Origin: Bolinopsis microptera
Taxonomy: Eukaryota; Ctenophora; Tentaculata; Lobata; Bolinopsidae
DNA length: 64,000 nt
Direction of reading: 5' to 3'
Assembly: GCF_026151205.1 (NCBI RefSeq)
Contig: NC_087083.1
Location: 558,001 to 622,000 of the forward strand
Positions 3,769-38,392 of this stretch are shown here, piece by piece. Position 1 is the first letter of the stretch, and each line of letters begins with the position of its first letter. The position numbers and the translations under genes are program-made. The notes under the pieces were generated by a model. That model saw nothing but the letters and a program-made list of their open reading frames with translations, was not told the origin of the DNA and did no database searches.

Positions 3769-6747
3769 AGCCCCCTCCCGGGTTGCAACATTGCCATGTT
3801 ACGCAAATAATTGCCGCGCTAACGAAATATTTGCCATCTTAGCAAAATATGCGCCGTGTTATGATGAATTTGCCAGGCTGCGCGTGATGATGCAAATATT
3901 TCATAAGGAGGCGAATTTTACGTTAGAAAAATGCGCATTCTTAGCAAAATATTTGCCAAACGGTCTGACGCGCGCTGCACGCTCCTTTTTAGTTTGTTTA
4001 CGCGAGAATGAAATCTTCGCATTCTTAGCAAAATATTCGCCTCCTTATAATTTATTTGCGCGAGAGTTAAATCTACGCTTTCTTAGCAAAATATTCGCCA
4101 CCTTATAGTTTATTTGCGCGAGAGTTAAATCTACGCTTTCTTAGCAAAATATTCGCCACCTTATAATTTATTTGCGGGAGAGTTAAATCTACGCTTTCTT
4201 AGCATAATATTTGCCGCCTTATAATTTATTTGCGGGAGAGTTAAATCTAGCTACGCTTTCTTAGAAAAATCATTGCCACATTATATTTTACATGTCTTCA
4301 TTTGTGATAGGAATTAGGATCATATGCTGCTTACGACTCTGCAGTGACTCACATACTGTATACGTAGATTGAACTGACCCGAAAGAATTATGATCAGTGG
4401 ATCACTTCGAAATACATAACGTGAACCGACGAATCGCGTCCACAAGATCACTTCGAAATAAGTGACGTCAACCGACCTGACGAATCACTTGATGAGTTAA
4501 TGATCCAAAAGAAGGATAGGATCTGACCTGAACTTGGAAATAAGATAGGATATTGTGTCGCACTGGATAGAGTACGCTACCTGGATTGTTATAGTGCGAC
4601 ACGTACTGTAGTCAGTGTAGTGCGAAAGATTACCTTTATAGTGTTAGCAGTTAAAAATATAAACTTCATCCCGTTTCAAATATCAAACCACAGTACGAAT
4701 TATTGCACTAATGCCGGTTATAATGAGGTCCAAAACACACGCTCAAAGTTAAAGTGTGTTTATATTTACCAATTAAACTTTAGTTGATGTTAACTTGTTA
4801 ATAATAACTGTGTACGACTACCTACCTAACAGTAACCGCTTCGATTTGTTTAACAAAACATCATTTTCCGAACTAAAGTGCGGTACCTATGACTTAGACT
4901 TTACTCCGCTAGAAACAAAAAAATTTAAAGAATTGGACACTAGCGAATCTACCTATAGCGAACTTTAGTGTTAGAACTTAACGGTGACCGACAACTAGGA
5001 ACCTCTCATTCCGGCCTCCCACAGGTATCACATCACATGGCCCAATCAGTGCCGTATCATTTGTGATGATATCCATATTCACATGACAGTTTAGTAAGTA
5101 TTTGGGTATTATAAAGGATTTTAAGAAGTGTTTGAGCTCTCGGCATGTGTTCACATAACGGACGTGAGCCAGGTCCAAAAGGGGCTGGTTCTCGTATCCA
5201 AGGATGTGAGCCGAGCATGCAATGGGAGTGATACGAGACATAAAATCACAAGTACGAGAGTTGATCAGCTGCTAATATACAACCGCAATTTTGGTATATA
5301 TACTGAAACGTGAACATGAAGAGTATCGGTTTTAATTCAACAAGCCTGCTTTCTCCAAATTCATAGAAGGACAGAGAGGATCTCAACAGCTGGTGGACAC
5401 GGACAGGGTACATAAAGAAGGCTAAAGATACAGCCATCTACTCTGCTTGGCGATGCCAGAAGCACTCCAATCTCCACAACCACCCTGCTGACAACGCTGC
5501 TCCACAGAAGCGTGAAGTCCTCTCCTCACTGAAGCGGAAAGCTACTGAGCAGCCCAAGGCAGTAGAGCCAAGGCGTCCGGATCTGCACAGCACTCTGAAG
5601 CGAAGACCTTAGAAGAATTCCTCCTTCCTTCTACCTGCACCTCCACGAGACGGGACGAGCCCTTTGTTATCTTCGACGGGAAGACAGATCGGAATGTACG
5701 AGTCGTTGCCTTCTCTACAGCCCGGAACCTTGCTACGCTGCATGGCATGGTAGCAACTGGATTGCAGACGGCACGTTTTACGTCGCCCCGAATATATTCA
5801 CCCAGAGTTATACGATTCATGCTGTTATTGACCAGAAACTTTTGCTGTGAAATCAGTGGATACCTACCTGAAGATTGAGAGATGGACGCCTCGAGATTGT
5901 TCTACAAGCTTACAAGGGCCCCCGACTGTTTAAACCAACTTCAATCGGTGTATTTTCGAACACTGATTCCGAATAACCCCTCATGACATCGATCACGTGA
6001 TATGACCGTAAGTTGACCCGAACTAAAGTCAACTACCTTCTGAACACGCACTGAAGTCCACCAGGGAAATATATTGAAAAATCTATTTTGTCAAACTCGA
6101 AGAAAACTTTTTGTAAACAGTAAAATAACTAATTCGTCAATAATGGATATGCAGATGATCCAGTTTCTCTCTAAACTTAAAACTCCGTAATATTTTGAAT
6201 CGATTTACTCGCGCATTCTTGGAAAAATAATTGCCAAACAGTTTGACGCGCGTTGCACGCCCCTTTTTGGTTTGTTTACGCGAGAATGTAATCTTCGCAT
6301 TATTAGCAAAATATTCGCGTCCTTATAATTATTTGCGCGACGCAAACAAATCTTCGCTTTCTTAGGGAAATATTCGCCACATTATAATTTATTTGCGAGA
6401 GGATTAAATTTGTGTTTTTTAAGTTCGCGCAGTTCTTAGCAAAATATTTATCTGAACGAAAGCTCAAAATTTACCGAGAAATTGACCGTCTAATTAATTT
6501 ATTTTAATGACTGTTTCTGACCTAAAATTGCACAAAAAATCGATTTAACTAGGTTTCAGAACCTATAAACAAATCCTTATTCCTCAAAATTTATGTTTTA
6601 TAGTTAATACGAGCAACAAGCAACGCCAGCATGTATGTGGTATTGATCCTTCGGTTCTACAGCTCATGACATAGGGCTGAAACCGTAAGATCGAGGCAAT
6701 CCTCACCTTAACTGATCGAACTTGAGCGGAGAGCAGAGTACGACAAA
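3769..6747 (+). repeat. Left terminal inverted repeat of the giant element
   Basis: It is the inverted copy of 35415-38392, nearly identical and ending at the shared GAGCAGAGTACGACAAA. The outer part (about 3790-4280) is built of degenerate repeats of roughly 60 bp with the recurring core TTAGCAAAATATTCGCC. Related modules recur at about 6200-6450. Several ORFs under 110 codons lie here but none has recognisable homology, except the transposase relic near 5400-5860. The repeated modules could be binding sites for the element's recombinase; that is inference. Confidence 0.93.
5395..5862 (+). pseudogene. MULE transposase relic with FLYWCH-type zinc finger (left TIR copy)
   Basis: One plus-strand frame reads AWRCQKHSNLHNHPADN, the C-terminal WRC...HNHP part of a FLYWCH finger. 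Further on, other frames read PFVIFDGKTDRNVRVVAFST and then ADGTFYVAPNIFTQSYTIHA. The latter matches the conserved DGTF..AP..F.Q.YTIHA block around the first catalytic aspartate of MULE transposases. The order finger, linker, DDE start is that of FLYWCH-type MULEs. The reading frame changes between blocks, and nothing of the rest of the catalytic domain follows, so this is a decayed N-terminal fragment. It appears to be an old insertion carried inside the giant element's TIR, because both ends hold it. It is unlikely to move the giant element: MULEs normally make about 9-bp duplications. Confidence 0.6.
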
Positions 6748-8615: not shown

Positions 8616-11600
8616 ATGATAGTGACCTACAAAGGATACCAGTTTGAAATCCGGAATCATAAATGGGCAGATTTGCCGGCCTTATTAGGATTCCAATTCC
8701 GGGGCAACATCTCCGACTACCTCATAACGCAAGAATTTTGGGATCGGAGAAATGCAAGGTTCGTACAAGTGGAGGCTGTCAACGAGCAAACGTTTGAAGC
8801 CCTCAAATGTTTGCCAGCCAAGGACCTTAATGTCAGAAAACCAGGAGAAGTACGAATAAAGTTCAAGAGGACAGAAAGGAATAAAAGTACGGGAAATAAT
8901 ATATCATTTTTTCATGGTTGATTTTACTCCTCCTGTTTTTATTGCATCTTCAGTTTTGTTTTTGTGAATCTTTTTGAGTTGATGCAGCCATGAAATTTAT
9001 CAGCACTTTCAGGACCAGAAAAAACAGCAAAGCACGTTCAAGGTATGAATATATTTTTTATACTACTTTACTTTGGGCGATCCTCAATATTACTGAGCTT
9101 CGCGTTAAAATCACCACACACTGCTAGCATGTTGTGAGGAGGTACCTTAGAGATAATCCTGGTTAGAGCGTTGTAGAATGCAGTTTTTTCTTCAATATCA
9201 CTGCAGTTAGTAGGAGCATAACATGAGAGGACAGTACCAATATTTATGAAAAAAAAATACTGTGCCCACAAAGGACTTCCGATTCTCACGATCTCTAATA
9301 AGCTATTAATTGTTATACATAATGATAAGATCTTGCTTCGTACTTTATTACATAGCACCTCCCTAGTCCCTATATGATATTGACATCATTAAGTTACTTA
9401 AACATTAAAAGGATATGTTTTAATACTGATATCTGGATAATATCCGGTTGGAAGAGACAAGGACAAACGAAACAAGTAAGTTAGGAGTAAGGGCAAATTT
9501 TCGGCGTTGAAAGTATTACTACTTTCAACACTACTATATAACAAATAATTTGAGCTTGAAGATGGCGTTGACGCCGAAAATTTGCCCTATTACTCCTAAC
9601 TTCCTTGTTTCATTTGTCCTTGTCTCTTCCAACCGGATATTATCCAGATATCAGTATTTCAATCATGAGACTAATGAACAGCGAACTACTCCGTTATTTG
9701 ATATGCTTTAACTTTTAATGTTTAAGTAACTTAAAGGAATTTTACTTTGTTACATCACAAAGTGCTGATTCTATAGTATAATAAAGTATTATTTCAAAAC
9801 AAGGTTATATTCATACTGTTCTATGTTAAGAAACTGACTGTTACCATTATATAGCCTCCAAAGCTGAAGATAAGATCCAGGACCTGGATCAGGACCCATT
9901 TGCTTTTGAGCCTCATGTACATCAACAAGGTAAGCGAAATATCATAAAAAAGATAATAATAATATTATAGAAAGCGTGATATTCTAAAATCTAATCCTGC
10001 TTCGTACTTTATTACATTTTGACATAGAATATTACTATACGAAACATTGTAATAATATGACAAGCAGTATGTTGTAGGATAGACCTAAATCCAGGTTGGT
10101 TATTTTGACATAGAATATTACTATTCGAAACATTGTAAAGTTGTAATATAGTCCTAAATCCAGGTTGGTTATTCTGACATAGAATATTACTCAAAACATT
10201 TCAATATAGTCCTAAATCCAGGTTGGTTATTCTGACATAGAATATCACTATTCGAAACATTGTAAAGTTGTAATATAGTCCTAAATCCAGGTTGGTTATT
10301 TTGACATAGAATATTACTATACGACACATTGTAATAATATGACAGGCAGTATGTTGTAGGATTGTCTTAAATCCAGGTTGGTTATTCTGACATAGAATAT
10401 TACTATTCGAAACATTGTAATAATATGACAGGCAGTATGTTGTAGGATTGTCTTAAATCCAGGTTGGTTATTCTGACATAGAATATTACTATACAAAACA
10501 ATGTAATAATATGACAGGCAGTATGTTGTAGGATAGTCCTAAATCCAGGTTGGTTATTCTGACATAGAATATTACTATACGAAACATTGTAATAATATGA
10601 CAGGCAGTATGTTGTAGGATAGTCCTAAATCCAGGTTGGTTATTCTGACATAGAATATTACTATACGAAACATTGTAATAATGTGACAGGCAGTATGTTG
10701 TAAGATAGTCCTAAATCCAGGTTGGTTATTTTGACATAGAATATTATTATACGAAACATTGTAATAATATGACAGGCAGTATGTTGTAAGATAGTCCCAA
10801 ATCCAGGTTGGTTATTTTGACATAGACTATTACTATACAAAACATTGTTATAATATGACAGGCAGTATGTTGTAGGATAGTCCTAAATCCAGGTTGGTTA
10901 TTCTGACATAGACTATTACTAAACGAAACATATATAGAATAATACTATACGAAACATTGTAATAGTATGACAGGTAGTATGTTGTAGGATAGTCCTAAAT
11001 CCAGGTTGGTTATTTTGACATAGAATATTATTATACGAAACATTGTAATAATATGACAGGCAGTATGTTGTAGGATAGTCTTAAATCCAGGTTGGTTATT
11101 TTGACATAGAATATTATTATACGAAACATTGTAATAATATGACAGGCAGTATGTTGTAGGATAGTCTTAAATCCAGGTTGGTTATTTTGACATAGAATAT
11201 TACTATTCGAAACATTGTAAAGTTGTAATATAGTCCTAAATCCAGGTTGGTTATTCTGACATAGAAAATTACTCAAAACATTTCAATATAGTCCTAAATC
11301 CAGGTTGGTTATTCTGACATAGAATATCACTATTCGAAACATTGTAAAGTTGTAATATAGTCCTAAATCCAGGTTGGTTATTTTGACATAGAATATTACT
11401 ATACGACACATTGTAATAATATGACAGGCAGTATGTTGTAGGATTGTCTTAAATCCAGGTTGGTTATTCTGACATAGAATATTACTATTCGAAACATTGT
11501 AATAATATGACAGGCAGTATGTTGTAGGATTGTCTTAAATCCAGGTTGGTTATTCTGACATAGAATATTACTATACAAAACAATGTAATAATATGACAGG

Positions 11601-14600
11601 CAGTATGTTGTAGGATAGTCCTAAATCCAGGTTGGTTATTCTGACATAGAATATTACTATACGAAACATTGTAATAATATGACAGGCAGTATGTTGTAGG
11701 ATAGTCCTAAATCCAGGTTGGTTATTCTGACATAGAATATTACTATACGAAACATTGTAATAATATGACAGGCAGTATGTTGTAAGATAGTCCTAAATCC
11801 AGGTTGGTTATTTTGACATAGAATATTATTATACGAAACATTGTAATAATATGACAGGCAGTATGTTGTAAGATAGTCCCAAATCCAGGTTGGTTATTTT
11901 GACATAGACTATTACTATACAAAACATTGTTATAATATGACAGGAAGTATGTTGTAGGATAGTCCTAAATCCAGGTTGGTTATTCTGACATAGACTATTA
12001 CTAAACGAAACATATATAGAATAATACTATACGAAACATTGTAATAATATGACAGGTAGTATGTTGTAGGATAGTCCTAAATCCAGGTTGGTTATTTTGA
12101 CATAGAATATTATTATACGAAACATTGTAATAATATGACAGGCAGTATGTTGTAGGATAGTCTTAAATCCAGGTTGGTTATTCTGACATAGAATATTACT
12201 ATACAAAACATTGTAATAATATGACAGGCAGTATGTTGTAGGATAGTCCTAAATCCAGGTTGGTTATTCTGACATAAAATATTACTTTACAAAACATTGT
12301 AATAATATGACAGGCAGTATGTTGTAGGATAGTCCTAAATCCAGGTTGGTTATTTTGACATAGAATATTACTATTCGAAACATAGTAATAATATGACAGG
12401 CAGTATGTTGTAGGATAGTCCTAAATCCAGGTTGGTTATTTTGACATAGAATATTACTATACGAAACATTGTAATAATATGACAGGCAGTATGTTGTAGG
12501 ATAGTCTTAAATCCAGGTTGGTTATTTTGACATAGAATATTATTATACGAAACATTGTAATAATATGACAGGCAGTATGTTGTAGGATAGTCCTAAATCC
12601 AGGTTGGTTATTTTGACATAGAATATTACTATTCGAAACATAGTAATAATATGACAGGCAGTATGTTGTAGGATAGTCCTAAATCCAGGTTGGTTATTTT
12701 GACATAGAATATTACTATACGAAACATTGTAATAATATGACAGGCAGTATGTTGTAGGATAGTCTTAAATCCAGGTTGGTTATTTTGACATAGAATATTA
12801 TTATACGAAACATTGTAATAATATGACAGGCAGTATGTTGTAGGATAGTCCTAAATCCAGGTTGGTTATTTTGACATAGAATATTATTATACGAAACATT
12901 GTAATAATATGACAGGCAGTATGTTGTAGGATTGTCTTAAATCCAGGTTGGTTATTCTGACATAGAATATTACTATTCGAAACATTGTAATAATATGACA
13001 GGCAGTATGTTGTAGGATTGTCTTAAATCCAGGTTGGTTATTCTGACATAGAATATTACTATACAAAACAATGTAATAATATGACAGGCAGTATGTTGTA
13101 GGATAGTCCTAAATCCAGGTTGGTTATTCTGACATAGAATATTACTATACGAAACATTGTAATAATATGACAGGCAGTATGTTGTAGGATAGTCCTAAAT
13201 CCAGGTTGGTTATTCTGACATAGAATATTACTATACGAAACATTGTAATAATATGACAGGCAGTATGTTGTAAGATAGTCCTAAATCCAGGTTGGTTATT
13301 TTGACATATAATATTATTATACGAAACATTGTAATAATATGACAGGCAGTATGTTGTAAGATAGTCCCAAATCCAGGTTGGTTATTTTGACATAGACTAT
13401 TACTATACAAAACATTGTTATAATATGACAGGAAGTATGTTGTAGGATAGTCCTAAATCCAGGTTGGTTATTCTGACATAGACTATTACTAAACGAAACA
13501 TATATAGAATAATACTATACGAAACATTGTAATAATATGACAGGTAGTATGTTGTAGGATAGTCCTAAATCCAGGTTGGTTATTTTGACATAGAATATTA
13601 TTATACGAAACATTGTAATAATATGACAGGCAGTATGTTGTAGGATAGTCTTAAATCCAGGTTGGTTATTTTGACATAGAATATTATTATACGAAACATT
13701 GTAATAATATGACAGGCAGTATGTTGTAGGATAGTCTTAAATCCAGGTTGGTTATTCTGACATAGAATATTACTATACAAAACATTGTAATAATATGACA
13801 GGCAGTATGTTGTAGGATAGTCCTAAATCCAGGTTGGTTATTCTGACATAAAATATTACTTTACAAAACATTGTAATAATATGACAGGCAGTATGTTGTA
13901 GGATAGTCCTAAATCCAGGTTGGTTATTTTGACATAGAATATTACTATTCGAAACATAGTAATAATATGACAGGCAGTATGTTGTAGGATAGTCCTAAAT
14001 CCAGGTTGGTTATTTTGACATAGAATATTACTATACGAAACATTGTAATAATATGACAGGCAGTATGTTGTAGGATAGTCTTAAATCCAGGTTGGTTATT
14101 TTGACATAGAATATTATTATACGAAACATTGTAATAATATGACAGGCAGTATGTTGTAGGATAGTCCTAAATCCAGGTTGGTTATTTTGACATAGAATAT
14201 TACTATTCGAAACATAGTAATAATATGACAGGCAGTATGTTGTAGGATAGTCCTAAATCCAGGTTGGTTATTTTGACACAGAATATTACTATACGAAACA
14301 TTGTAATAATATGACAGGCAGTATGTTGTAGGATAGTCTTAAATCCAGGTTGGTTATTTTGACATAGAATATTATTATACGAAACATTGTAATAATATGA
14401 CAGGCAGTATGTTGTAGGATAGTCCTAAATCCAGGTTGGTTATTTTGACATAGAATATTATTATACGAAACATTGTAATAATATGACAGGCAGTATGTTG
14501 TAGGATAGTCCTAAATCCAGGTTGGTTATTTTGACATAGAATATTATTATACGAAACATTGTAATAATATGACAGGCAGTATGTTGTAGGATAGTCTTAA

Positions 14601-17600
14601 ATCCAGGTTGGTTATTTTGACATAGAATATTATTATACGAAACATTGTAATAATATGACAGGCAGTATGTTGTAGGATAGTCTTAAATCCAGGTTGGTTA
14701 TTCTGACATAGAATATTACTATACGAAACATTGTAATAATATGACAGGCAGTATGTTGTAGGATAGTCCTAAATCCAGGTTGGTTATTCTGACATAAAAT
14801 ATTACTTTACAAAACATTGTAATAATATGACAGGCAGTATGTTGTAGGATAGTCCTAAATCCAGGTTGGTTATTTTGACATAGAATATTACTATTCGAAA
14901 CATAGTAATAATATGACAGGCAGTATGTTGTAGGATAGTCCTAAATCCAGGTTGGTTATTTTGACATAGAATATTATTATACGAAACATTGTAATAATAT
15001 GACAGGCAGTATGTTGTAGGATAGTCTTAAATCCAGGTTGGTTATTTGACATAGAATATTATTATACGAAACATTGTAATAATATGACAGCAGGGACAAA
15101 AGGATTTCGCGGCATGTACGAAATCGCGAAATTTCCCATTCTCCGCGACAAATTTGATGTATAGTTTAATGTATAGCCTGTTAAATTTCGCGGTACTGCG
15201 ATTTTTGGCCAAAATAATCGCGAAATCCTTTTGTCCCTGTATGACAGGCAGTATGTTGTAGGATAGTCTTAAATCCAGGTTGGTTATTCTGACATAGAAT
15301 ATTACTATACGAAACATTGTAATAATATGACAGGCAGTATGTTGTAGGATAGTCCTAAATCCAGGTTGGTTATTCTGACATAAAATATTACTTTACAAAA
15401 CATTGTAATAATATGACAGGCAGTATGTTGTAGGATAGTCCTAAATCCAGGTTGGTTATTTTGACATAGAATATTACTATTCGAAACATAGTAATAATAT
15501 GACAGGCAGTATGTTGTAGGATAGTCCTAAATCCAGGTTGGTTATTTTGACATAGAATATTACTATACGAAACATTGTAATAATATGACAGGCAGTATGT
15601 TGTAGGATAGTCTTAAATCCAGGTTGGTTATTTTGACATAGAATATTATTATACGAAACATTGTAATAATATGACAGGCAGTATGTTGTAGGATAGTCCT
15701 AAATCCAGGTTGGTTATTTTGACATAGAATATTACTATTCGAAACATAGTAATAATATGACAGGCAGTATGTTGTAGGATAGTCCTAAATCCAGGTTGGT
15801 TATTTTGACATAGAATATTACTATACGAAACATTGTAATAATATGACAGGCAGTATGTTGTAGGATAGTCTTAAATCCAGGTTGGTTATTTTGACATAGA
15901 ATATTATTATACGAAACATTGTAATAATATGACAGGCAGTATGTTGTAGGGTAGTCCTAAATCCAGGTTGGTTATTCTGACATAGAATATTACTATTCGA
16001 AACATAGTAATAATATGACAGGCAGTATGTTGTAGGATAGTCCTAAATCCAGGTTGGTTATTTTGACATAGAATATTACTATTCGAAACATAGTAATAAT
16101 ATGACAGGCAGTATGTTGTAGGATAGTCCTAAATCCAGGTTGGTTATTTTGACATAGAATATTACTATACGAAACATTGTAATAATATGACAGGCAGTAT
16201 GTTGTAGGATAGTCCTAAATTCAGGTTGGTTATTCTGACATAGACTATTACTATACGAAACATTGTAATAATATGACAGGCAGTATGTTGTAGGATAGTC
16301 CTAAATCCAGGTTGATTATTCTGATATAGAATATTACTATACGAAACATTGTAATAATATGACAGGCAGTATGTTGTAGGATAGACCTAAATCCAGGTTG
16401 GTTATTCTGACATAGAATATTACTATACGAAACATTGTAATAATATGACAGGCAGTATGTTGTAGGATAGTCTTAAATCCAGGTTGGTTATTTTGACATA
16501 GAATATTATTATACGAAACATTGTAATAATATGACAGGCAGTATGTTGTAGGATAGTCTTAAATCCAGGTTGGTTATTCTGACATAGAATATTACTATAC
16601 GAAACATTGTAATAATATGACAGGCAGTATGTTGTAGGATAGTCCTAAATCCAGGTTGGTTATTCTGACATAAAATATTACTTTACAAAACATTGTAATA
16701 ATATGACAGGCAGTATGTTGTAGGATAGTCCTAAATCCAGGTTGGTTATTTTGACATAGAATATTACTATTCGAAACATAGTAATAATATGACAGGCAGT
16801 ATGTTGTAGGATAGTCCTAAATCCAGGTTGGTTATTTTGACATAGAATATTACTATACGAAACATTGTAATAATATGACAGGCAGTATGTTGTAGGATAG
16901 TCCTAAATCCAGGTTGGTTATTCTGACATAGACTATTACTATACGAAACATTGTAATAATATGACAGGCAGTATGTTGTAGGATAGTCCTAAATCCAGGT
17001 TGATTATTCTGATATAGAATATTACTATACGAAACATTGTAATAATATGACAGGCAGTATGTTGTAGGATAGTCCTAAATCCAGGTTGGTTATTCTGATA
17101 TAGAATATTACTATACGAAACATTGTAATAATATGACAGGCAGTATGTTGTAGGATAGTCCTAAATCCAGGTTGGTTATTCTGACATAGACTATTACTAT
17201 ACGAAACATAGTAATAATATGACAGGCAGTATGTTGTAGGATAGTCCTAAATCCAGGTTGGTTATTCTGACATAGAATATTACTATACGAAACATTTTAA
17301 TAATATGACAGGCAGTATGTTGTAGGATAGTCCTAAATTCAGGTTGGTTATTTTGACATAGAATATTACTATACGTTCAAACATTGTAATAATATGACAG
17401 GCAGTATGTTGTAAGATAGTCCTAAATCAAGGTTGGTTATTCTGACATAGAATATTACTATACGAAACATTGTAATAATATGACAGGCAGTATGTTGTAG
17501 GATAGTCCTAAATCCAGGTTGGTTATTTTGACATAGAATATTACTATACGAAACATTATAATAATATGACAGGCAGTATCTTGTAGGATAGTCCTAAATC

Positions 17601-22696: not shown

Positions 22697-25600
22697 ATGT
22701 TACCAATACAACTCCCGTCACCCGATGTGCAGTCAAAGTTGGTCAACAAATCTTTGAAGGTTTGCAAATATGCTTTCTTATGGTTTTTTGTTTTTGTAAA
22801 TATCAAATTACCAAAATTACTTAAGTTTATAATTATTTAAAAGAATTTCCGTCCTGTCCAAATAAGTGGGTTAAGCATATAGTTTTAAACTCTTCAGACA
22901 TTATGTTGTCGAGTTATCTGAAAAACTCTTATATTTCATCAGTCACAAGTTGAAATAACAGTAAATTCTTAAAGTTGAAATAACTCCGTTTCTGATCAGA
23001 GTTAGAAGCTAAATTTGGGCATCAGATCATTCAGAGCTATCACATTAAGTGGGCTAGAGAAAAGTTTTAGACTCCTCAGATATTATGTTGTCGAGTAATT
23101 TGAAAAAAACCTTATATTTGATCAGTCACAAGTTGAAATAACAGCAAATTCTTAAAATTGAAATAACTCCGTTTCTGATGAGAGTTAGAAGCTAAATTCG
23201 GGCATCAGATCATCCAGAGCTATCATATTTAGTGGACTAGAGACAAGTTTTAAACTCCTCAGATATTATGTTGTCGAGTAATTTGGAAAAAAACCTTATA
23301 TTTGATCAGTCACAAGTTGAAATAACAGCAAATTCTTAAAATTGAAATAACTCCGTTTCTGATCAGAGTTAGAAGCTAAATTTGGGCATCAGATCATTCA
23401 GAGCTATCACATTGAGTGGACTAGAGACAAGTTTTAAACTCTTCAGATATTATGTTGTCGAGTAATCTGGAAAAAACCTTATATTTGATCAGTCACAAGT
23501 TATACGTTATGCTGTTACAGTTATATTAAACTATTAATGTAATCAAAGCTGCCTTAGTTTAGTGATAGTCGGTTAGCTTGAACATGATTACTCTATTTTC
23601 GTACAATGTCCAAATTCAAAATAAATAATGCATGACAATGTATCGGTTTTTGTATATTAGAGCTTTAGCCACAGGTAGGTTGGTCTAGGCGTGCCTAGAA
23701 AAAGATAATCCTAATATAATAAATATATATAATAACAATATGCAAATAATCGTACTGCTTACAGATCGAATTAAGAAGCTCAGGAGAATGGACAGAAAAA
23801 GCTACCGAAATTCTTCTGTCAAAACCATTGCTTCTGTTCCAGTTTCACCGATTACAACAGTCAATAACGCAAGTTTTCGAGAAAAGTTTTATGCTCAATC
23901 CTGTAATGTGTTGGTGTCCGATTTGTGGTATTGTAATCAACCTTCCAGAATGTAATCGGATAAATCTGCTATCCACACATATAGCATCGTTTCATCCAAC
24001 TAAAACAAACGTCACTGAGATTTGTTTAAAGCTGGAGCAACCACTATTCAATCGAAAATTTGACACAAAAATCCAAATAAGAAGAATAGCTGATAAACAT
24101 TTATCCGAACAGAAAAAACAGTTGCCATCATGTTTGGGAATTCCAGAAGACACACACTACCTTGCATATTGGTTTAATCATGTCTTGAATCAGGAAATCA
24201 TAGAACCGACACATATAACCTTTCAAGAGGTTGACGCCCTCATGGAAATAATTCTACGTTACCCAAAACCTGCTCCAAATGGATTAGGGTGGAAGACCTG
24301 GCCCACATTGGCTGCTTATGTGCAGAAAATAGGATCATCTTTTTCTAGGCATGCAGTAAAGTTTTATCTAGGATCACACAAGGTCACTGATAAATCTTTG
24401 CAAGGACTAAAAAACTTTGTAGCTTCCGTAAATCATGCAGGACCAAGTCTCACGACTGTTGACTCCTGGAAACCCCCGTTGCAGTTAGTTTCCGGACCAA
24501 ATCATCTGACAACATTGTTACACCTTCAGATCTTGATAAAATCAAAAGATTCGCCCCAAATCAGTAATGAGAGAGTCACACGATTTCCCGGAGTACTGGT
24601 TTATGACGAACAGGAAATCAATCAGGGTGTTTTTCCAGTTGAAATCGATGGAAAAATTAATCTGGCTGGATTTTCGGAACTAATTTCGGTCGACGACATT
24701 GACACTGAAAATCTTTCGTCTCAAATGAGAACTGATCCGTCTTACAAAATGATATCTGCTGCTCGTGCTTTTCGGTTCGCTGACTTCGGGGATTATTTTA
24801 GCAGCGCTAATTTCATCTCGTACATCGCTGGAGCAGAAAAACACCCAGAGATTGCTCTTAATCTGGAGACAGCTATAAAGTGGATCACAAGCTGCAAAAA
24901 CTGTCTAGAGAAGGGTTAGAAATAGTTAATTTCCTATATATTTAGTTTATTAGCTGTCCTTTTTCTATACCAAGCCAAACCAATACTTCATGCCGTAAGG
25001 ACTTTATAAGTGGGTTAAGCATATAGTTTTAAACTCTTCAGATATTATGTTGTCGAGTAATCTGGAAAAAACCTTCTATTTGATCAGTCACAAGTTAAAA
25101 TAACAGCAAATTCTTAAAATTGAAATAACTCCGTTTCTGATCAGAGTTAGAAGCTAAATTTGGGCATCAGATCATTCAGAGCTATCACATTGAGTGGACT
25201 AGAGACAAGTTTTAAACTCCTCAGACATTATGTCGTCGAGTAATCTGGAAAAAACCTTATATTTTAACAGTCACAAGTTGAAATAACAGCAATTTGTTAA
25301 AATTGAAATAACTCCGTTTCTGATCAGAGTTAGAAGCTAAATTTGGGCATCAGATCATTCAGAGCTATCACATTGAGTGGACTAGAGACAAGTTTTAAAC
25401 TCTTCAGATATTATGTTGTCGAGTAATCTGAAAAAAAAACCTTATATTTGATCAGTCACAAGTTAAAATAACAGCAAATTCTTAAAATTGAAATAACTCC
25501 GTTTCTGATCAGAGTTAGAAGCTAAATTCGGGCATCAGATCATTCAGAGCTATCACATTGAGTGGACTAGAGACAAGTTTTAAACTCTTCAGATATTATG

Positions 25601-28600
25601 TTGTCGAGTAATCTGGAAAAAAAACCTTATATTTGATCAGTCACAAGTTGAAATAACAGCAAATTGTTAAAATTGAAATAACTCCGTTTCTGATCAGAGT
25701 TAGAAGCTAAATTTGGGCATCAGATCATTCAGAGCTATCACATTGAGTGGACTAGAGACAAGTTTTAAACTCTTCAGATATTATGTTGTCGAGTAATCTG
25801 AAAAAAAAACCTTATATTTGATCAGTCACAAGTTAAAATAACAGCAAATTCTTAAAATTGAAATAACTCCGTTTCTGATCAGAGTTAGAAGCTAAATTCG
25901 GGCATCAGATCATTCAGAGCTATCACATTGAGTGGACTAGAGACAAGTTTTAAACTCTTCAGATATTATGTTGTCGAGTAATCTGGAAAAACCTTATATG
26001 AAATTTAAACAGCAAATTCTTAAAATTGAAATAACTCCGTTTCTGATCAGAGTTAGAAGCTAAATTTTGGCATCAGATCATTCAGAGCTGTCACATTGAG
26101 TGGAATAGAGACAAGTTTTAAACTCCTCAGACATTATGCTGTCGAGTTTTCTGGAAAAAACCTTATATTTGAACTGTCACAAGTTGAAAAACAGCAAATT
26201 CTTAATATTGAAATAACTCCGTTTCTGATCAGAGTTACAAGCTAAATTCGGGCATCAGATCATTCAGAGCTATCACATTGACTGGACAAGAGACAAGTTT
26301 TAAACTCCTCAGATATTATGTTGTCATAACAGCAAATTCTTAAAATTGAAATAACTCCGTTTTGGATCAGAGTTAGAAGCTAAATTTGGGCATAAGATCA
26401 TTCAGAGCTATCATATTGAGTGGACTAGAGACAAGTTTTAAACTCCTCAGACATTATGTTGTCGAGTAATCTGGAAAAAACCTTATATTTTAACAGTCAC
26501 AAGTTGAAATAACAGCAATTTGTTAAAATTGAAATAACTCCGTTTCTGATCAGAGTTAGAAGCTAAATTTGGGCATCAGATCATTCAGAGCTATCACATT
26601 GAGTGGACTAGAGACAAGTTTTAAACTCTTCAGATATTATGTTGTCGAGTAATCTGAAAAAAAAACCTTATATTTGATCAGTCACAAGTTAAAATAACAG
26701 CAAATTCTTAAAATTGAAATAACTCCGTTTCTGATCAGAGTTAGAAGCTAAATTTGGGCATCAGATCATTCAGAGCTATCACATTGAGTGGACTAGAGAC
26801 AAGTTTTAAACTCTTCAGATATTATGTTGTCGAGTAATCTGGAAAAAAAACCTTATATTTGATCAGTCACAAGTTAAAATAACAGCAAATTCTTAAAATT
26901 GAAATAACTCCGTTTCTGATCAGAGTTAGAAGCTAAATTTGGGCATCAGATCATTCAGAGCTATCACATTGAGTGGACTAGAGACAAGTTTTAAACTCCT
27001 CAGACATTATGTTGTCGAGTAATCTGGAAAAAAAACCTTATATTTGATCAGTCACAAGTTAAAATAACAGCAATTTGTTAAAATTGAAATAACTCCGTTT
27101 CTGATCAGAGTTAGAAGCTAAATTTGGGCATCAGATCATTCAGAGCTATCACATTGAGTGGACTAGAGACAAGTTTTAAACTCTTCAGATATTATGTTGT
27201 CGAGTAATCTGGAAAAAAACCTTCTATTTGATCAGTCACAAGTTAAAATAACAGCAAATTCTTAAAATTGAAATAACTCCGTTTCTGATCAGAGTTAGAA
27301 GCTAAATTTGGGCATCAGATCATTCAGAGCTATCACATTGAGTGGACTAGAGACAAGTTTTAAACTCTTCAGATATTATGTTGTCGAGTAATCTGGAAAA
27401 AAAACCTTATATTTGATCAGTCACAAGTTAAAATAACAGCAAATTGTTAAAATTGAAATAACTCCGTTTCTGATCAGAGTTAGAAGCTAAATTTGGGCAT
27501 CAGATCATTCAGAGCTATCACATTGAGTGGACTAGAGACAAGTTTTAAACTCTTCAGATATTATGTTGTCGAGTAATCTGGAAAAAAAACCTTATATTTG
27601 ATCAGTCACAAGTTGAAATAACAGCAAATTCTTAAAATTGAAATAACTCCGTTTCTGATCAGAGTTAGAAGCTAAATTTGGGCATCAGATCATTCAGAGC
27701 TATCACATTGAGTAGACTAGAGACAAGTTTTAAACTCTTCAGATATTATGTTGTCGAGTAATCTGGAAAAAAACCTTATATTTGATCAGTCACAAGTTAA
27801 AATAACCTTATATTTGATCAGTCACAAGTTAAAATAACAAACAGCAAATTCTTAAAATTGAAATAAATCCGTTTCTGATCAGAGTTAGAAGCTAAATTTG
27901 GGCATCAGATCATTCAGAGCTGTCACATTGAGTGGACTAGAGACAAGTTTTAAACTCTTCAGATATTATGTTGTCGAGTAATCTGGAAAAAAAACCTTAT
28001 ATTTGATCAGTCACAAGTTAAAATAACAGCAAATTCTTAAAATTGAAATAACTCCGTTTCTGATCAGAGTTAGAAGCTAAATTTGGGCATCAGATCATTC
28101 AGAGCTGTCACATTGAGTGGACTAGAGACAAGTTTTAAACTCTTCAGATATTATGTTGTCGAGTAATCTGGAAAAAACCTTATATTTTAACAGTCACAAG
28201 TTGAAATAACAGCAAATTCTTAATATTGAAATAACTCCGTTTCTGATCAGAGTTAGAAGCTAAATTCGGGCATCAGATCATTCAGAGCTATCACATTGAG
28301 TGGACTAGAGACAAGTTTTAAACTCTTCAGATATTATGTTGTCGAGTAATCTGGAAAAACCTTATATGAAATTTAAACAGCAAATTCTTAAAATTGAAAT
28401 AACTCCGTTTCTGATCAGAGTTAGAAGCTAAATTCGGGCATCAGATCATTCAGAGCTATCACATTGAGTGGACTAGAGACAAGTTTTAAACTCCTCAGAC
28501 ATTATGCTGTCGAGTTTTCTGGAAAAAAACCTTATATTTGATCAGTCACAAGTTAAAATAACAGCAAATTCTTAAAATTGAAATAACTCCGTTTCTGATC

Positions 28601-31600
28601 AGAGTTAGAAGCTAAATTTGGGCATCAGATCATTCAGAGCTATCACATTGAGTGGACTAGAGACAAGTTTTAAACTCCTCAGACATTATGCTGTCGAGTT
28701 TTCTGGAAAAAACCTTATATTTGATCAGTCACAAGTTAAAATAACAGCAAATTCTTAAAATTGAAATAACTCCGTTTCTGATCAGAGTTAGAAGCTAAAT
28801 TTGGGCATCAGATCATTCAGAGCTATCACATTGAGTGGACTAGAGACAAGTTTTAAACTCCTCAGACATTATGCTGTCGAGTTTTCTGGAAAAAACCTTA
28901 TATTTGATCAGTCACAAGTTGAAATAACAGCAATTTGTTAAAATTGAAATAACTCCGTTTCTGATCAGAGTTAGAAGCTAAATTCGGGCATCAGATCATT
29001 CAGAGCTATCACATTGAGTGGACTAGAGACAAGTTTTAAACTCTTCAGATATTATGTTGTCATAACAGCAAATTCTTAAAATTGAAATAACTCCGTTTTG
29101 GATCAGAGTTAGAAGCTAAATTTGGGCATCAGATCATTCAGAGCTATCACATTGAGTGGACTAGAGACAAGTTTTAAACTCTTCAGATATTATGTTGTCG
29201 AGTTTTCTGGAAAAAACCTTATATTTGAACTGTCACAAGTTGAAAAACAGCAAATTGTTAATATTGAAATAACTCCGTTTCTGATCAGAGTTAGAAGCTA
29301 AATTCGGGCATCAGATCATTCAGAGCTATCACATTGACTGGACAAGAGACAAGTTTTAAACTCCTCAGATATTATGTTGTCATAACAGCAAATTCTTAAA
29401 ATTGAAATAACTCCGTTTCTGATCAGAGTTAGAAGCTAAATTTGGGCATAAGATCATTCAGAGCTATCATATTGAGTGGACTAGAGACAAGTTTTAAACT
29501 CCTCAGACATTATGTTGTCGAGTTTTCTGGAAAAAACCTTATATTTGATCAGTCACAAGTTGAAATAACAGCAAATTATTAATATTGAAATAACTCCGTT
29601 TCTGATCAGAGTTACAAGCTAAAGATAAATAGTACATTTATTTCAGGAAGAATATGCGATTTTACGAATATGCTAGACCCCTGCTCCTTTTGTGTTAACG
29701 AGAAACAGATTTGCTACTCTCTTGCGATCTTTCAGATATTGTCTGATAAATACAGTGCTCAGGTAATTTCTTGCGAATATTGTTATTGTAACTTGAATAT
29801 GATAAGATGACATTTCTTAACCTTGTTGATTTATCGAATTACACGCAACACACCTTATTACCGTTTTTGAAGCCAAATCTGTTTATTAGAGGGTCATTTA
29901 AAAACTGTTTTTCAATACATTTCTTTTAAAATTGTACGAATTAATCACATTTCGAAATTTTGAACAGGTTAGTGTGTCCAAGAACTGGTCAGCAATACTG
30001 AAAACCTTCAGTGAGACCCTTAAATCTTCCCGATATCATCACAGTTACGGCTTTGGCATGTTACACAACATGAAGAACGTCGTCAATTTCACCAGAAATT
30101 ACTTGCTTTGTCACAATGGAGAGGCATTCTCTAAGAAAGCCTTGATCCATATATGGAATAGAGATCCAATAATCAAGTCACTTTTAACAGCTAAAGTTGG
30201 TAAGTAAATTATTGAAGATGTTATTCTGGAATTTTTATTTCGATTCTTTAATTTTTTGATATATCAAATCCTGAAAATATCAGAATGAGTGAAATATTTA
30301 GTATTTAAGGTAATCTTTTTTTTCCTTCAGTTCATGGCCTTGACAGGCAAAGTGACTTCACAAGTTTTGCAGTGACAAGCGCGCCGGTCATCAACAGACT
30401 TCGGGAGCTGGAAGAGGTTACATTTCAAATCTTCCCGGAAAATGTTTTCGTATACAAGCTCGAGGCTCAAAATCACAAAGATGTCAGGGTCTTATCTCTT
30501 CTCGCATTTGATCTACTAAACATTATCATTTATGATCAAATATACAAAAAGCTTTGGAGGGTAACGAATGCGATCATTGGAAAGGTTAGTGAGATTCCGA
30601 GCTCACAGTTCGAGTTCGTCTCTGATATTGCTGTGGGGAACATCACCAATAATGTGAAACTGACTGCATTATTAGCTATGGATGGCTCATCAGTCCATGT
30701 TTTGAAAATTGGGCTGAAAGTCGAATACCTCCAACGACTTAAAATACCATCAGTGGGAGAGTGCTTCGTGTTTCAGGAGAGTACACAGAGCATTATTGTC
30801 TTAACATCAGACTCAAAATTGATGATTTTTGAGATAACAAACAAATATCAAAATGTGCTCCAAGAAAACGGAAAGAGACGTCGGATTGTTGTTTGCTCTC
30901 TGACAGAAAAAGTTAAACTAACTCTGGCACCAAAACCAGAAAAAGTTTTGCTGTACGGTGAAAAAATGTTAGTGTACGGTGGAACCTCCTTGAGCGTATT
31001 CAACAATGAAATCAATTGTTTTGAAATGTCCGTCACAGTTGAGCCAATTTTGGCTTTTGCAAGACACAAAAAACCAGACGTCTTGTATGTAGTGTATAAG
31101 TCCTCACCAAATCATATCAGGACTGTAAAAATGTCAGATGGAGTACTTGTGGACGTTACAAATCCGATAACTCTGACTGAAGAAATAACATTGCTTGAGA
31201 ATGGTTTTCAGGGACTATTACATGTAGTTACAAAAAGAGATCAGATCTTTGTACATACTGAGTTGGATTTTGTGGTTAGGTTATGGGGGGCAGTACAAAA
31301 CGGCTACATAGCGTGCGGTTATGAAAGTGACAACGTATCTGCAAAAAATGCTGTCAAACCACCTAACGAAGTTGCAAAGAAGGCAATGGGAGAATGCTGC
31401 CAATTCCTTGATGAATGGGACACTAAAAAAAAGGAAGTACTCGGTAAGGTAAATGTTATGGGGAAACACGGTAATGTTTGCTCGGCGGATGTCAAATGCA
31501 TCTTAGAAACTAAAAAAGCCATGGATATTAATTTGACTCGCATGGAAAGTTTGAATATCAAAAACCAGACAAAGATACGTATCTCTACTATGTTTAGCGA

Positions 31601-32327
31601 GGCCCATGCGGAGCATGGCTTCGGGAACATGCCACAGGGAACAGCGCGGACATTGCTAGATTTCGCAATTGGCCAGCGGAATACAACGATTAACATGCTC
31701 CTACAGTACACAGATTCTGGATTCTCTCAGCCAGCTGAATACAGGAAATCTTATTTTGAGCCAAACACCGAAAATTCTCTTAATGTGGAAGAACTTTTGA
31801 CCTTAATAAAAGAAATAAAACCGATCATTGAGAAGACCCCCCGTTACCACATTCTGTCAAGTTATGTGAACAACGCTGGTAATCACAGAGTGGAGGATAA
31901 AAAGCTATATGAGATCCTGAATATTGCCAGATCTCAGCCAAGGAGGACAACCCGACAATTTTATAAAGAGTCTGCTGGATTTGGTCCCCAGGTTTTGGAT
32001 GAGCGGCAGAATCCTGATCTTCTTTTCAACAAAGACGATGTTGCTGCTTTTGAGAATTTAGACGGAACTGTTGGGTTCATAGCCCTATCAGTTAATCTCA
32101 CAAAGGACGAGTTTGAGAGAAACAATAACATCATAGGAAAGAAGCTACTAAAAATTAGTCAGTTTCAGTACAAATGTGGAGATATTTCTACAATAAGTTC
32201 AAAGTTTCTGCTTCGTGATAGATTGGGAAGCTATCTTTGTGAATCAGGATGTAACGAAAATGATATTTTTAATCTATCCGAGAAGTTTTACGACGACGTA
32301 AAAAGTGCACATTCGTTAACTCTGTAA
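22697..32327 (+). CDS. Gene C: about 1185-aa element-borne protein with zinc fingers, candidate transposase, function unknown
   Basis: Predicted exons are 22697-22759, 23765-24914, 29647-29762, 29968-30199 and 30331-32327. Junctions are GT/AG, phases 0, 1, 0, 1, with total length divisible by three. Without the donor at 24915 exon 2 would stop three bases later. Splicing there joins CKNCLEK to RICDFTNMLDPCSFC and builds one continuous cysteine cluster, which supports the model. Near residue 65 is CPICG...THIASFH, a C2H2-like finger. The region with LTTVDSWKPPLQL and RFPGVLVYDEQEIN looks globular. The last exon (665 codons, open throughout) starts with a beta-rich part, possibly propeller-like, and ends in a mixed region containing EHGFGNMPQGTARTLLDFA. 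No DDE or tyrosine-recombinase signature can be assigned by eye. It is the largest protein of the element, hence a transposase candidate by position only. Candidate AATAAA at 32552. Confidence 0.66.
22880..23510. repeat. 183-bp satellite, short block in gene C intron 1
   Basis: About three and a half copies of the same unit that fills intron 2 (shared core ATAACTCCGTTTCTGATCAG; another shared block TTATGTTGTCGAGTAAT). Units differ by small indels in an A-run. The block ends about 250 bp before exon 2. Confidence 0.92.
25005..29625. repeat. 183-bp satellite, long block in gene C intron 2
   Basis: About 25 copies of a unit of roughly 183 bp (core GGGCATCAGATCATTCAGAG). Some units are shortened where CGAGTAATCTGG... 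is missing (near 26324, 29060 and 29380). One short internal duplication lies near 27790. The array occupies nearly the whole intron between exons 2 and 3 and stops about 20 bp before the exon 3 acceptor region. Confidence 0.95.
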
Positions 32328-33008: not shown

Positions 33009-33917
33009 ACTGTTAACTACACTTCAGAGCTAACTCTAACTCTGTAGTGTAGTTAGCAGTAAGAGTTAGCTCTGAAGTGTAGTTAACAGTTAGAGTTAGC
33101 TCTAAAGTGTAGTTAACAGTTTGAGTTAACTCTGAAGTGTAGTTAACAGTTAGAGTTAGCTCTGAAGTGTAGTTAACAGTTAGAGTTAACTCTGAAGTGT
33201 AGTTAACAGTTAGAGTTAACTCTGAAGTATAGTTAACAGTTAGAGTTAACTCTGAACTCTGAAGTGTAGTTAACAGTTAGAGTTAACTCTGAAGTGTAGT
33301 TAACAGTTAGAGTTAGCTCTGAAGTGTAGTTAACAGTTAGAGTTAACTCTGAAGTATAGTTAACAGTTAGAGTTAGCTCTAAAGTGTAGTTAACAGTTAG
33401 AGTTAACTCTGAAGTGTAGTTAACAGTTAGAGTTAGCTCTGAAGTGTAGTTAACAGTTAGAGTTAGCTCTGAAGTGCAGTTAACAGTTAGAGTTAGCTCT
33501 TAAGTGTATTTAACAGTTATAGTTAGCTCTGAAGTGTAGTTAACAGTTAGAGTTAGCTCTGAAGTGTAGTTAACAGTTATAGTTAGCTCTGAAGTGTAGG
33601 TAACAGTTAGAGTTAGCTCTGAAGTGAAGTTAACAGTTAGAGTTAGCTCTGAAGTGTAGTTAACAGTTAGAGTTAACTCTGAAGTATAGTTAACAGTTAG
33701 AGTTAGCTCTGAAGTGTAGTTAACAGTTAGAGTTAGCTCTGAAGTGTAGTTAACAGTTAGAGTTAGCTCTGAAGTGTATTTAACAGTTATAGTTAGCTCT
33801 GAAGTGTAGTTAACAGTTATAGTTAGCTCTGAAGTGTAGTTAACAGTTAGAGTTAGCTCTGAAGTGTAGTTAACAGTTAGAGTTAGCTCTGAAGTGTAGT
33901 TAACAGTTAGAGTTAGC
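33008..33917. repeat. 30-bp minisatellite
   Basis: About 30 tandem copies of a 30-bp unit (core GTTAACAGTTAGAGTTAGCT), with scattered single-base variants. One copy of the unit at the left edge is in inverted orientation (TAACTGTTAACTACACTTCAG near 33010). The minus-strand 158-codon ORF here is only the repeat read in one open frame. Confidence 0.95.
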
Positions 33918-34365
33918 AACTCAGTCACGGGCTCTGTATTCCGTAAAGTTAAACAAATAGTAATACTATTGTACAATATATATTGATAGTATTATTAAAG
34001 CTTTAAAGCGGAATAAGAAATACTGTGTTTCATTTCGTACAAAAATCTTGGAAAACCCAAATTCATGATACAGTTTCCTCGGTAAAATTGAATGAAACTA
34101 TCGATGTTTTAAAATTTCGGGTATATATATAAATTTTGAATTTGGAAGTATTGACTTCAGCGCAATTCGGACAAACAGCACTTTAAAAAATTCATGAAAA
34201 GAAAATTCAACGGGTAAATAAATAAAAATTATTAAACGTGTGCCAGTTCATTATATTTGGCATTAATTATGCACGTACATTAGTTTCACATAAATTGAAT
34301 GTGAAGAGCTAAGTTCTTCACTCAAAGTCAAGGTCGCTATGCGTAGCTTCGCCTTCCCTTTAATG
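33918..34365. other. Unique AT-rich stretch between minisatellite and right arm
   Basis: No ORF, RNA gene or repeat that I can support. Confidence 0.5.
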
Positions 34366-35412: not shown

Positions 35413-35414
35413 GA

Positions 35415-38392
35415 TTTGTCGTACTCTGCTCTCCGCTCAAGTTCGATCAGTTAAGGTGAGGATTGCCTCGATCTTACGGTTTCAGCCCTATGTCATGAGC
35501 TGTAGAACCGAAGGATCAATACCAAATACATGCTGGCGTTGCTTGTTGCTCGTATTAACTATAAAACATAAATTTTGAGGAATAAGGATATGTTTATAGG
35601 TTCTGAAACCTAGTTAAATCGATTTTTTGTGCAATTTTAGGTCAGAAACAGTCATTAAAATAAATTAATTAGACGGTCAATTTCTCGGTAAATTTTGAGC
35701 TTTCGTTCAGATAAATATTTTGCTAAGAACTGCGCGAACTTAAAAAACACAAATTTAATCCTCTCGCAAATAAATTATAATGTGGCGAATATTTCCCTAA
35801 GAAAGCGAAGATTTGTTTGCGTCGCGCAAATAATTATAAGGACGCGAATATTTTGCTAATAATGCGAAGATTACATTCTCGCGTAAACAAACCAAAAAGG
35901 GGCGTGCAACGCGCGTCAAACTGTTTGGCAATTATTTTTCCAAGAATGCGCGAGTAAATCGATTCAAAATATTACGGAGTTTTAAGTTTAGAGAGAAACT
36001 GGATCATCTGCATATCCATTATTGACGAATTAGTTATTTTACTGTTTACAAAAAGTTTTCTTCGAGTTTGACAAAATAGATTTTTCAATATATTTCCCTG
36101 GTGGACTTCAGTGCGTGTTCAGAAGGTAGTTGACTTTAGTTCGGGTCAACTTACGGTCATATCACGTGATCGATGTCATGAGGGGTTATTCGGAATCAGT
36201 GTTCGAAAATACACCAATTGAAGTTGGTTTAAACAGTCGGGGGCTCTTGTAAGCTTGTAGAACAATCTCGAGGCGTCCATCTCTCAATCTTCAGGTATCC
36301 ACTGATTTCACAGCAAAAGTTTCTGGTCAATAACAGCATGAATCGTATAACTCTGGGTGAATATATTCGGGGCGACGTAAAACGTGCCGTCTGCAATCCA
36401 GTTGCTACCATGCCATGCAGCGTAGCAAGGTTCCGGGCTGTAGAGAAGGCAACGACTCGTACATTCCGATCTGTCTTCCCGTCGAAGATAACAAAGGGCT
36501 CGTCCCGTCTCGTGGAGGTGCAGGTAGAAGGAAGGAGGAATTCTTCTGAGGTCTTCGCTTCAGAGTGCTGTGCAGATCCGGACGCCTTGGCTCTACTGCC
36601 TTGGGCTGCTCAGTAGCTTTCCGCTTCAGTGAGGAGAGGACTTCACGCTTCTGTGGAGCAGCGTTGTCAGCAGGGTGGTTGTGGAGATTGGAGTGCTTCT
36701 GGCATCGCCAAGCAGAGTAGATGGCTGTATCTTTAGCCTTCTTTATGTACCTGTCCGTGTCCACCAGCTGTTGAGATCCTCTCTGTCCTTCTATGAATTT
36801 GGAGAAAGCAGGCTTGTTGAATTAAAACCGATACTCTTCATGTTCACGTTTCAGTATATATACCAAAATTGCGGTTGTATATTAGCAGCTGATCAACTCT
36901 CGTACTTGTGATTTTATGTCTCGTATCACTCCCATTGCATGCTCGGCTCACATCCTTGGATACGAGAACCAGCCCCTTTTGGACCGGGCTCACGTCCGTT
37001 ATGTGAACACATGCCGAGAGCTCAAACACTTCTTAAAATCCTTTATAATACCCAAATACTTACTAAACTGTCATGTGAATATGGATATCATCACAAATGA
37101 TACGGCACTGATTGGGCCATGTGATGTGATACCTGTGGGAGGCCGGAATGAGAGGTTCCTAGTTGTCGGTCACCGTTAAGTTCTAACACTAAAGTTCGCT
37201 ATAGGTAGATTCGCTAGTGTCCAATTCTTTAAATTTTTTTGTTTCTAGCGGAGTAAAGTCTAAGTCATAGGTACCGCACTTTAGTTCGGAAAATGATGTT
37301 TTGTTAAACAAATCGAAGCGGTTACTGTTAGGTAGGTAGTCGTACACAGTTATTATTAACAAGTTAACATCAACTAAAGTTTAATTGGTAAATATAAACA
37401 CACTTTAACTTTGAGCGTGTGTTTTGGACCTCATTATAACCGGCATTAGTGCAATAATTCGTACTGTGGTTTGATATTTGAAACGGGATGAAGTTTATAT
37501 TTTTAACTGCTAACACTATAAAGGTAATCTTTCGCACTACACTGACTACAGTACCTACGTGTCGCACTATAACAATCCAGGTAGCGTACTCTATCCAGTG
37601 CGACACAATATCCTATCTTATTTCCAAGTTCAGGTCAGATCCTATCCTTCTTTTGGATCATTAACTCATCAAGTGATTCGTCAGGTCGGTTGACGTCACT
37701 TATTTCGAAGTGATCTTGTGGACGCGATTCGTCGGTTCACGTTATGTATTTCGAAGTGATCCACTGATCATAATTCTTTCGGGTCAGTTCAATCTACGTA
37801 TACAGTATGTGAGTCACTGCAGAGTCGTAAGCAGCATATGATCCTAATTCCTATCACAAATGAAGACATGTAAAATATAATGTGGCAATGATTTTTCTAA
37901 GAAAGCGTAGCTAGATTTAACTCTCCCGCAAATAAATTATAAGGCGGCAAATATTATGCTAAGAAAGCGTAGATTTAACTCTCCCGCAAATAAATTATAA
38001 GGTGGCGAATATTTTGCTAAGAAAGCGTAGATTTAACTCTCGCGCAAATAAACTATAAGGTGGCGAATATTTTGCTAAGAAAGCGTAGATTTAACTCTCG
38101 CGCAAATAAATTATAAGGAGGCGAATATTTTGCTAAGAATGCGAAGATTTCATTCTCGCGTAAACAAACTAAAAAGGAGCGTGCAGCGCGCGTCAGACCG
38201 TTTGGCAAATATTTTGCTAAGAATGCGCATTTTTCTAACGTAAAATTCGCCTCCTTATGAAATATTTGCATCATCACGCGCAGCCTGGCAAATTCATCAT
38301 AACACGGCGCATATTTTGCTAAGATGGCAAATATTTCGTTAGCGCGGCAATTATTTGCGTAACATGGCAATGTTGCAACCCGGGAGGGGGCT
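35415..38392 (-). repeat. Right terminal inverted repeat of the giant element
   Basis: It is the inverted copy of the left TIR. The differences I noticed are single-base changes. Just inside its inner end, about 34366-35412 is a second, more diverged direct copy of the inner TIR segment (about 35510-36270), so the right end carries a tandem duplication that the left end lacks. Confidence 0.93.
36298..36766 (-). pseudogene. MULE transposase relic with FLYWCH-type zinc finger (right TIR copy)
   Basis: This is the inverted copy of the relic in the left TIR. On the minus strand one frame is open from 36764 to 36405 and reads the HNHPADN finger end and LSSLKRKATEQPKAVEP. The catalytic-start block DGTFYVAP lies in another frame. 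Its near identity to the left copy shows that both TIRs duplicated or converted after the fragment was acquired. Confidence 0.58.

Follow-up and report, generated by a model that had tools for sequence, protein, structure and literature searches.

A 34.6-kb transposon of Bolinopsis microptera points to a gene-bearing cut-and-paste lineage with a putative DDE transposase split by a predicted beta-propeller

The 34,624-bp element at positions 3769-38392 of the window, by which we mean the whole stretch of 64,000 nucleotides of Bolinopsis microptera DNA that was analysed (contig NC_087083.1, positions 558,001 to 622,000), is a mobile, genuine transposon with relatives in the same genome. Eukaryotic DNA transposons fall into a limited set of superfamilies, which are sorted by their transposases. 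Searches of Pfam, NCBIfam and PDB revealed no match to a transposase family, and the present element most likely represents a new cut-and-paste lineage. Its ends, its target site duplications (TSDs), two families of copies (the window family and a second one, referred to as family 2) and internally deleted derivatives of family 2 can all be read directly, and parts of genes 1 and 3 of the element are linked to both families. For gene 3, the searched libraries contain no matching protein family, and it probably encodes the mobilising enzyme. On balance, we consider it likely that this is a gene-bearing cut-and-paste lineage in which gene 3 is a DDE transposase split by a propeller and genes 1 and 2 are co-mobilised helpers.

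The element has AG..CT ends and is bounded by inverted arms of about 2.98 kb each. When compared with each other, the arms align in ungapped pieces of 887 nt (99% identical) and of 841, 805 and 459 nt (100% identical), and a pairwise alignment reveals, up to the point of divergence, three indels of 1-4 bp as well as 6 substitutions. A compensating pair of 58-nt gaps in the pairwise alignment was rejected as an artefact, because the arms contain internal 58-bp repeats and the other comparison aligns the same stretch without gaps. The insertion host is a 40-bp satellite. Satellite arrays are located on both sides of the element (1-3768 and 38392-44544), and when the flanks are joined with a single copy of the TSD, an intact 40-bp monomer spans the junction. 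An earlier note on this DNA had described a 34.6-kb inverted-repeat element with terminal inverted repeats (TIRs) of about 3 kb and a perfect TAATAA duplication, and had taken it for a genuine large insertion; the arms, the TSD and the restored satellite monomer bear out both statements. An assembly artefact as the origin of the element is unlikely, since the same ends were found on copies at other sites.

Outside the element, the window contains a 72-bp minisatellite (49016-53194; 58 copies, 99% matches), the period of which is a multiple of three and through which open frames run on both strands. Near the satellites, at 54542-57202, a LINE-type frame codes for 886 aa and includes an endonuclease and a reverse transcriptase domain.

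The features of the element are listed in Table 1. The exon models of genes 1-3 were drawn up by visual inspection of splice signals and open frames. The start exon of gene 3 was not found, and its 1164 codons are thus a minimum. For gene 2, the open frame that includes the last coding exon matched the Pfam zf-BED profile with an E-value of 0.28, which is not significant, and a partial homologue is present at locus L053 (56% over 70 codons). Satellite DNA makes up about 14 kb of the element; two introns contain some 12.8 kb of it, and these two intron arrays account for much of the element's size. Intronic sequence of gene 1 also contains a weak LINE endonuclease-like match (9068-9385; Pfam E 0.0034, which does not reach the cut-off of the profile) as well as an inverted pair of 69 bp (9422-9490 and 9590-9658).

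Table 1. Positions of the features of the element within the window
Feature	Position	Strand	Remarks
Target site duplication TAATAA, left copy	3763-3768		sequence, TSD comparison
Left terminal inverted repeat	3769-6747 (arm end approximate)	+	starts AGCCCCCTCCCGGGTTGCAAC
58-bp tandem repeats within left terminal inverted repeat	3993-4290		
Gene 1	8616-20158	+	nine GT-AG exons, 435 aa, no internal stop
Gene 1, exons 1-5	8616-8886, 9013-9042, 9855-9929, 18406-18471, 18652-18770	+	
Gene 1, exons 6-9	18932-19202, 19365-19433, 19605-19691, 19839-20158	+	
Satellite array in gene 1 intron	10071-18248		mainly 86-bp units, 8.2 kb
Gene 2, partial reading	20401-22467	+	candidate first exon 20401-20464
Gene 2, last coding exon	within open frame 22015-22467	+	150 aa, CxxC...H region
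Gene 3, putative transposase	23765-32327	+	four GT-AG exons, 1164 open codons, no internal stop
Gene 3, exons	23765-24914, 29647-29762, 29968-30199, 30331-32327	+	
185-bp satellite array in gene 3 intron 24915-29646	25025-29623		4.6 kb
30-bp tandem array, interval between gene 3 and right arm	33040-33917		
Right terminal inverted repeat	35414-38392 (inner limit approximate)	-	finishes ...GGGAGGGGGCT
Target site duplication TAATAA, right copy	38393-38398		sequence, TSD comparison

The genome searched for copies comprised 264.65 Mb in 232 contigs. A 601-base query starting at position 3750 produced at least 42 matches, and the first 21 bases of the element, with up to 3 mismatches, were found 33 times in forward and 38 times in reverse orientation, compared to 0 and 8 times for the reversed control. 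The recurrence of this end pattern is not due to chance. For the window family, 19 opposite-strand pairs of ends were considered, namely the window element, 13 other copies that were obtained whole (7.3-11.3 kb), a 33.1-kb pair, and four pairs represented by their flanks only, which include copies of 322 bp and 3.8 kb; unpaired ends, ends in the same orientation and ends some 267 kb apart were left out of this count. An exact 6-bp TSD was found in 17 of the 19 tested pairs, the exceptions being the 33.1-kb pair (TTGGAG/TTGAAG) and C7:15516699/15527939 (no match). Over both families, the TSD was exact in 28 of 31 tested pairs and no pair of its own ends matched at 7 or 8 bp; in the control, mismatched pairs agreed at 6 bp in 10 of 930 cases. 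The 28 exact TSDs represent 24 distinct AT-rich sequences that lean to TTWWAA. The search with the element ends that had been suggested as a test of mobility thus yielded further copies that share these ends and are flanked by 6-bp duplications of other sequence, and mobility is borne out.

Some copies deserve separate mention. The 33.1-kb pair on C1 was rejected as a second giant copy and was not counted as proof: its TSD agrees in 5 of 6 bases, and none of genes 1, 2 and 3 was found in it by tblastn with ORF queries. Host DNA may have been captured between these ends, or the two ends are unrelated. The stretch (L057-L060, C1:7053207-7086349) contains a 704-aa frame in which C2H2 zinc fingers were recognised by eye, as well as LINE-like frames. 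The right flank ATAATACTCCTGCAG is common to L063 (C7:15527939) and copy c12b (C12:9772841), suggesting that recombination or segmental duplication has occurred between copies. Among the part of the copies that was viewed, the interiors of several short window-family copies consist of long GA-rich repeats reading as RE/SL-rich frames. The divergent copy c7a, the ends of which are about 79% identical, contains a tyrosine recombinase fragment (L023, 3473-3862; PF00589, E 2.6e-8) and, on the minus strand, a reverse transcriptase frame (L023, 1279-3153; PF00078, E 1.5e-19). Tyrosine-recombinase elements, such as Crypton and DIRS, carry a YR gene and are not known to leave a TSD. A tyrosine recombinase was rejected as the mobiliser, as TSDs are present and the YR fragment occurs in copy c7a only.

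When the proteins of genes 1, 2 and 3 were compared by tblastn with the 13 other window-family copies (3 of them partly masked), only a remnant of gene 1 was detected, which corresponds to its N-terminal part and is located in c7a (47%, E 1e-17). Moreover, the gene-3-like loci on C1, C13, C5 and C9 have no window-family end within about 0.7 Mb, among the ends listed. Both observations would suit the view that the window element is non-autonomous, with arms moved by an unrelated transposase encoded elsewhere and with three captured passenger genes. Inverted repeats were sought in ten pieces around gene-3-like loci, of which the one in L033 was informative; the pieces from C1 contained no inverted repeat of at least 18 nt. 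A 23-base inverted end, AGGCCCCTTCCAGCCATTGC, was found to bound repeats that hold some of the gene-3-like fragments. The family 2 ends (AGGCCCCTTCC) have the motif AG[CG]CCCCT[CT]CC in common with the window family. Genome-wide, the family 2 end was matched 119 times (100 matches listed), compared to 0 for the reversed control, and exact 6-bp TSDs were present in 11 of 12 tested pairs (L033, L039, and 9 of 10 further flank-only pairs).

One family 2 copy of 7,593 bp (C12:3466208-3473800; TSD TACCTT, inverted repeat of 27 bp) contains a homologue of the N-terminal part of gene 1 (23% over ~120 aa, with an E-value of 5e-4 from a blastp search against two sequences only) and a homologue of gene 3 (35% over 285 aa and 23% over 226 aa). 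This copy is itself incomplete, because the N-terminal region of gene 3 remained unmatched in tblastn and no match to gene 2 was seen. L033 and L039, which have the perfect TSDs TTCATC and AATTAA, respectively, match both ends and the gene 3 C-terminal part of the C12 copy with main blocks of about 90-94% identity, while the middle is missing. They are internal deletions of the C12 copy.

Since part-homologues of genes 1 and 3 reside inside family 2, which is alike in ends and TSD length, these genes belong to the transposon and do not look like passenger cargo. The passenger view would need two independent captures of the same gene pair, and we regard it as improbable. The earlier note was right in reading three spliced unknown genes in the element, but its description of them as cargo is probably not apt. 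Likewise, the term ‘giant’ is apt for this 34.6-kb copy but not for the lineage, in view of the satellite-swollen introns, the 7.6-kb family 2 copy and the other copies of 7.3-11.3 kb. Nor are long arms a defining trait of the lineage, because the inverted repeat of the gene-bearing family 2 copy is limited to 27 bp.

The gene 3 homologue on C1 has both main parts of gene 3 in one 1038-aa frame, with its end displaced to another frame, and it is 25-38% identical by part to the protein encoded in the window. The frame upstream of this homologue showed no significant match to gene 1. dN/dS values were computed by NG86, with stop codons skipped. Values of 0.20 and 0.22 were obtained for the N-terminal part of gene 1 against two copies at one C5 locus, and a value of 0.12 for the N-terminal part of gene 3 against each of two decayed copies on C13. 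For the C1 homologue, comparison with two C11 copies gave 0.32 and 0.42. In part of the C-terminal half of gene 3, the values were 0.90 and 0.62 relative to two other C5 copies and 0.35 relative to a C9 piece, and family 2 fragments gave 0.5-1.3 among themselves. Parts of genes 1 and 3 have been under purifying selection. The high values fit decay after insertion, and the low values fit selection before insertion.

The window protein and the C1 homologue, which are the two sequences that cover the region of D281, D340 and H455, have in common the motifs YDxQxxNQGxFxV..DGK (D281), D340, CxxC (377-380), GxLHxxKNxxNxxRN (H455) and EAxxEHxF (E927); the last of these is also kept in the C12 homologue. 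Between H455 and E927, 23 strands are predicted in a row. Two AlphaFold models of diverged gene 3 homologues had poor mean pLDDT values of 36.6 and 39.5. In Foldseek searches with both models, the leading matches were propeller proteins, as judged from the entry titles; among the matches listed, TM-scores were 0.03-0.26, and for one model non-propellers were mixed in below about rank 15. No transposase was seen among the best 50 matches listed for either model. These predictions suggest that a beta-propeller is likely to lie between H455 and E927. The assignment of gene 3 as a DDE transposase with D281, D340, H455 and E927 is a reasoned guess from motifs and low-confidence models. For the window ORFs and their homologues, no transposase family was found in Pfam and NCBIfam at E-values up to 1, or in PDB and Pfam at E-values up to 10. 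Searches of viral contigs with the gene 3 C-terminal ORF and with alignments A4 and A5 matched 3, 68 and 32 stretches, respectively, none of which encodes a relative.

These findings can be combined into a model in which a cut-and-paste lineage with AG..CT ends would insert at AT-rich sites and make a 6-bp target duplication. Gene 3 would most likely be its transposase, a DDE-type enzyme with an RNase H fold interrupted by a beta-propeller, where the propeller would occupy the place at which P-type transposases carry an insertion domain. We infer both the catalysis by gene 3 and the identity of its catalytic residues. Genes 1 and 2 may encode co-mobilised helper or DNA/chromatin-binding proteins, and the numerous copies lacking genes would be derivatives that are not autonomous and are moved in trans. 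A beta-propeller is usually a protein-interaction fold. If the model is true, a profile-less transposase with an apparent beta-propeller would be a novel means to control or target transposition. In addition, the genome offers a ready test set, with gene-bearing copies in two families, deletion derivatives, a 322-bp miniature and readable duplications.

Whether the lineage amounts to an undescribed superfamily, defined by a DDE transposase split by a beta-propeller with helper gene 1 alongside in both families, is a more tentative matter, to which we assign somewhat less than an even chance. Among the papers listed in literature searches, in a collection without most subscription papers and Repbase reports, none describes, by title and opening lines of the abstract, a transposase lineage with a propeller or WD40 insertion; likewise, no such lineage appears among the papers listed on superfamilies with 6-bp TSDs, giant transposons, satellite-linked long-TIR elements or AG..CT ends. 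A rival explanation, which overlaps with our preferred one in mechanism and differs from it on novelty, is that the element belongs, as a remote relative, to one of the DDE superfamilies already described (Dada, P, hAT6, Kolobok or another one in Repbase) and has diverged too far for the profiles used to recognise it. The H..KN and E..F motifs of gene 3 presumably resemble the C/DxxH and final-E motifs of the P/Dada/hAT-type clan, but in both sequences that extend over C/DxxH a glycine takes the place of the C or D. We judge this explanation to be less likely than our preferred one, although a distant kinship to the C/DxxH clan may exist.

The TSD of P elements and the usual TSD of hAT elements is 8 bp, and P and most hAT are disfavoured by the 6-bp TSD observed here. 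Nonetheless, hAT5, hAT6 and hAT7 are exceptions to the 8-bp rule, and hAT families with 6-bp TSDs exist (PMC12730594, in part). Gene 3 is like the P element transposase and THAP9 in that D, D and then an H motif are followed by a large inserted domain and the final E; in DmTNP these positions are D230, D303, an insertion at 339-528, and E531 (PMC8230255, in part). It differs from them in that there is no sequence match and in that its insertion is a predicted beta-propeller instead of the GTP-binding helical domain of P.

Dada is another group that the motif order of gene 3 brings to mind, and it shares with the present lineage the 6-7-bp TSDs and the introns; it has an inserted exonuclease in Laccaria and Ectocarpus, and its D-D spacing is 68 as compared to 59 here (PMC3706591, in part). 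However, many Dada families enter small RNA genes, whereas the insertion sites reported here are varied and AT-rich, and Dada is disfavoured by this target choice. The N-terminal CCCC and C-terminal CCHC fingers of Dada were not recognised here, and its DxxH stands against GxLHxxKN at H455, the D or C being absent in our two sequences, in a comparison made by description. The part of PMC3706591 that was consulted describes no inserted propeller.

A degenerate Polinton/Maverick stripped of its viral genes would account for the 6-bp TSD, the long inverted repeats and the AG-type ends, which are also found in Mavericks (PMC8097293, in part). However, in agreement with the earlier note, which saw no Polinton gene, Pfam searches of 16 window ORFs and six homologue ORFs revealed no match to a protein-primed DNA polymerase B, rve integrase, packaging ATPase or capsid, although short exons could escape such searches. 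In addition, introns are numerous in the genes of the element, and a 7.6-kb copy whose inverted repeat measures 27 bp contains homologues of parts of genes 1 and 3. For vertebrate Mavericks, the end motif is reported to be (AG)3 or (AGT)2, which differs from the ends observed here (AGCCCCCTCCC and AGGCCCCTTCC). Polinton is disfavoured by gene content, and we consider this origin very improbable.

IS3EU/GingerRoot elements likewise have a 6-bp TSD, but their termini are TA..TA, occasionally TG..CA (PMC10045372, in part), as opposed to AG..CT here. IS3EU is disfavoured by these termini, and no integrase-type match was found in the window element. Lastly, foldback elements such as Tetris resemble the window element in the long inverted arms with tandem repeats and the link to satellites that are reported for them (PMC4079207), whereas the gene-bearing copy of family 2 differs from them in its inverted repeat of only 27 bp.
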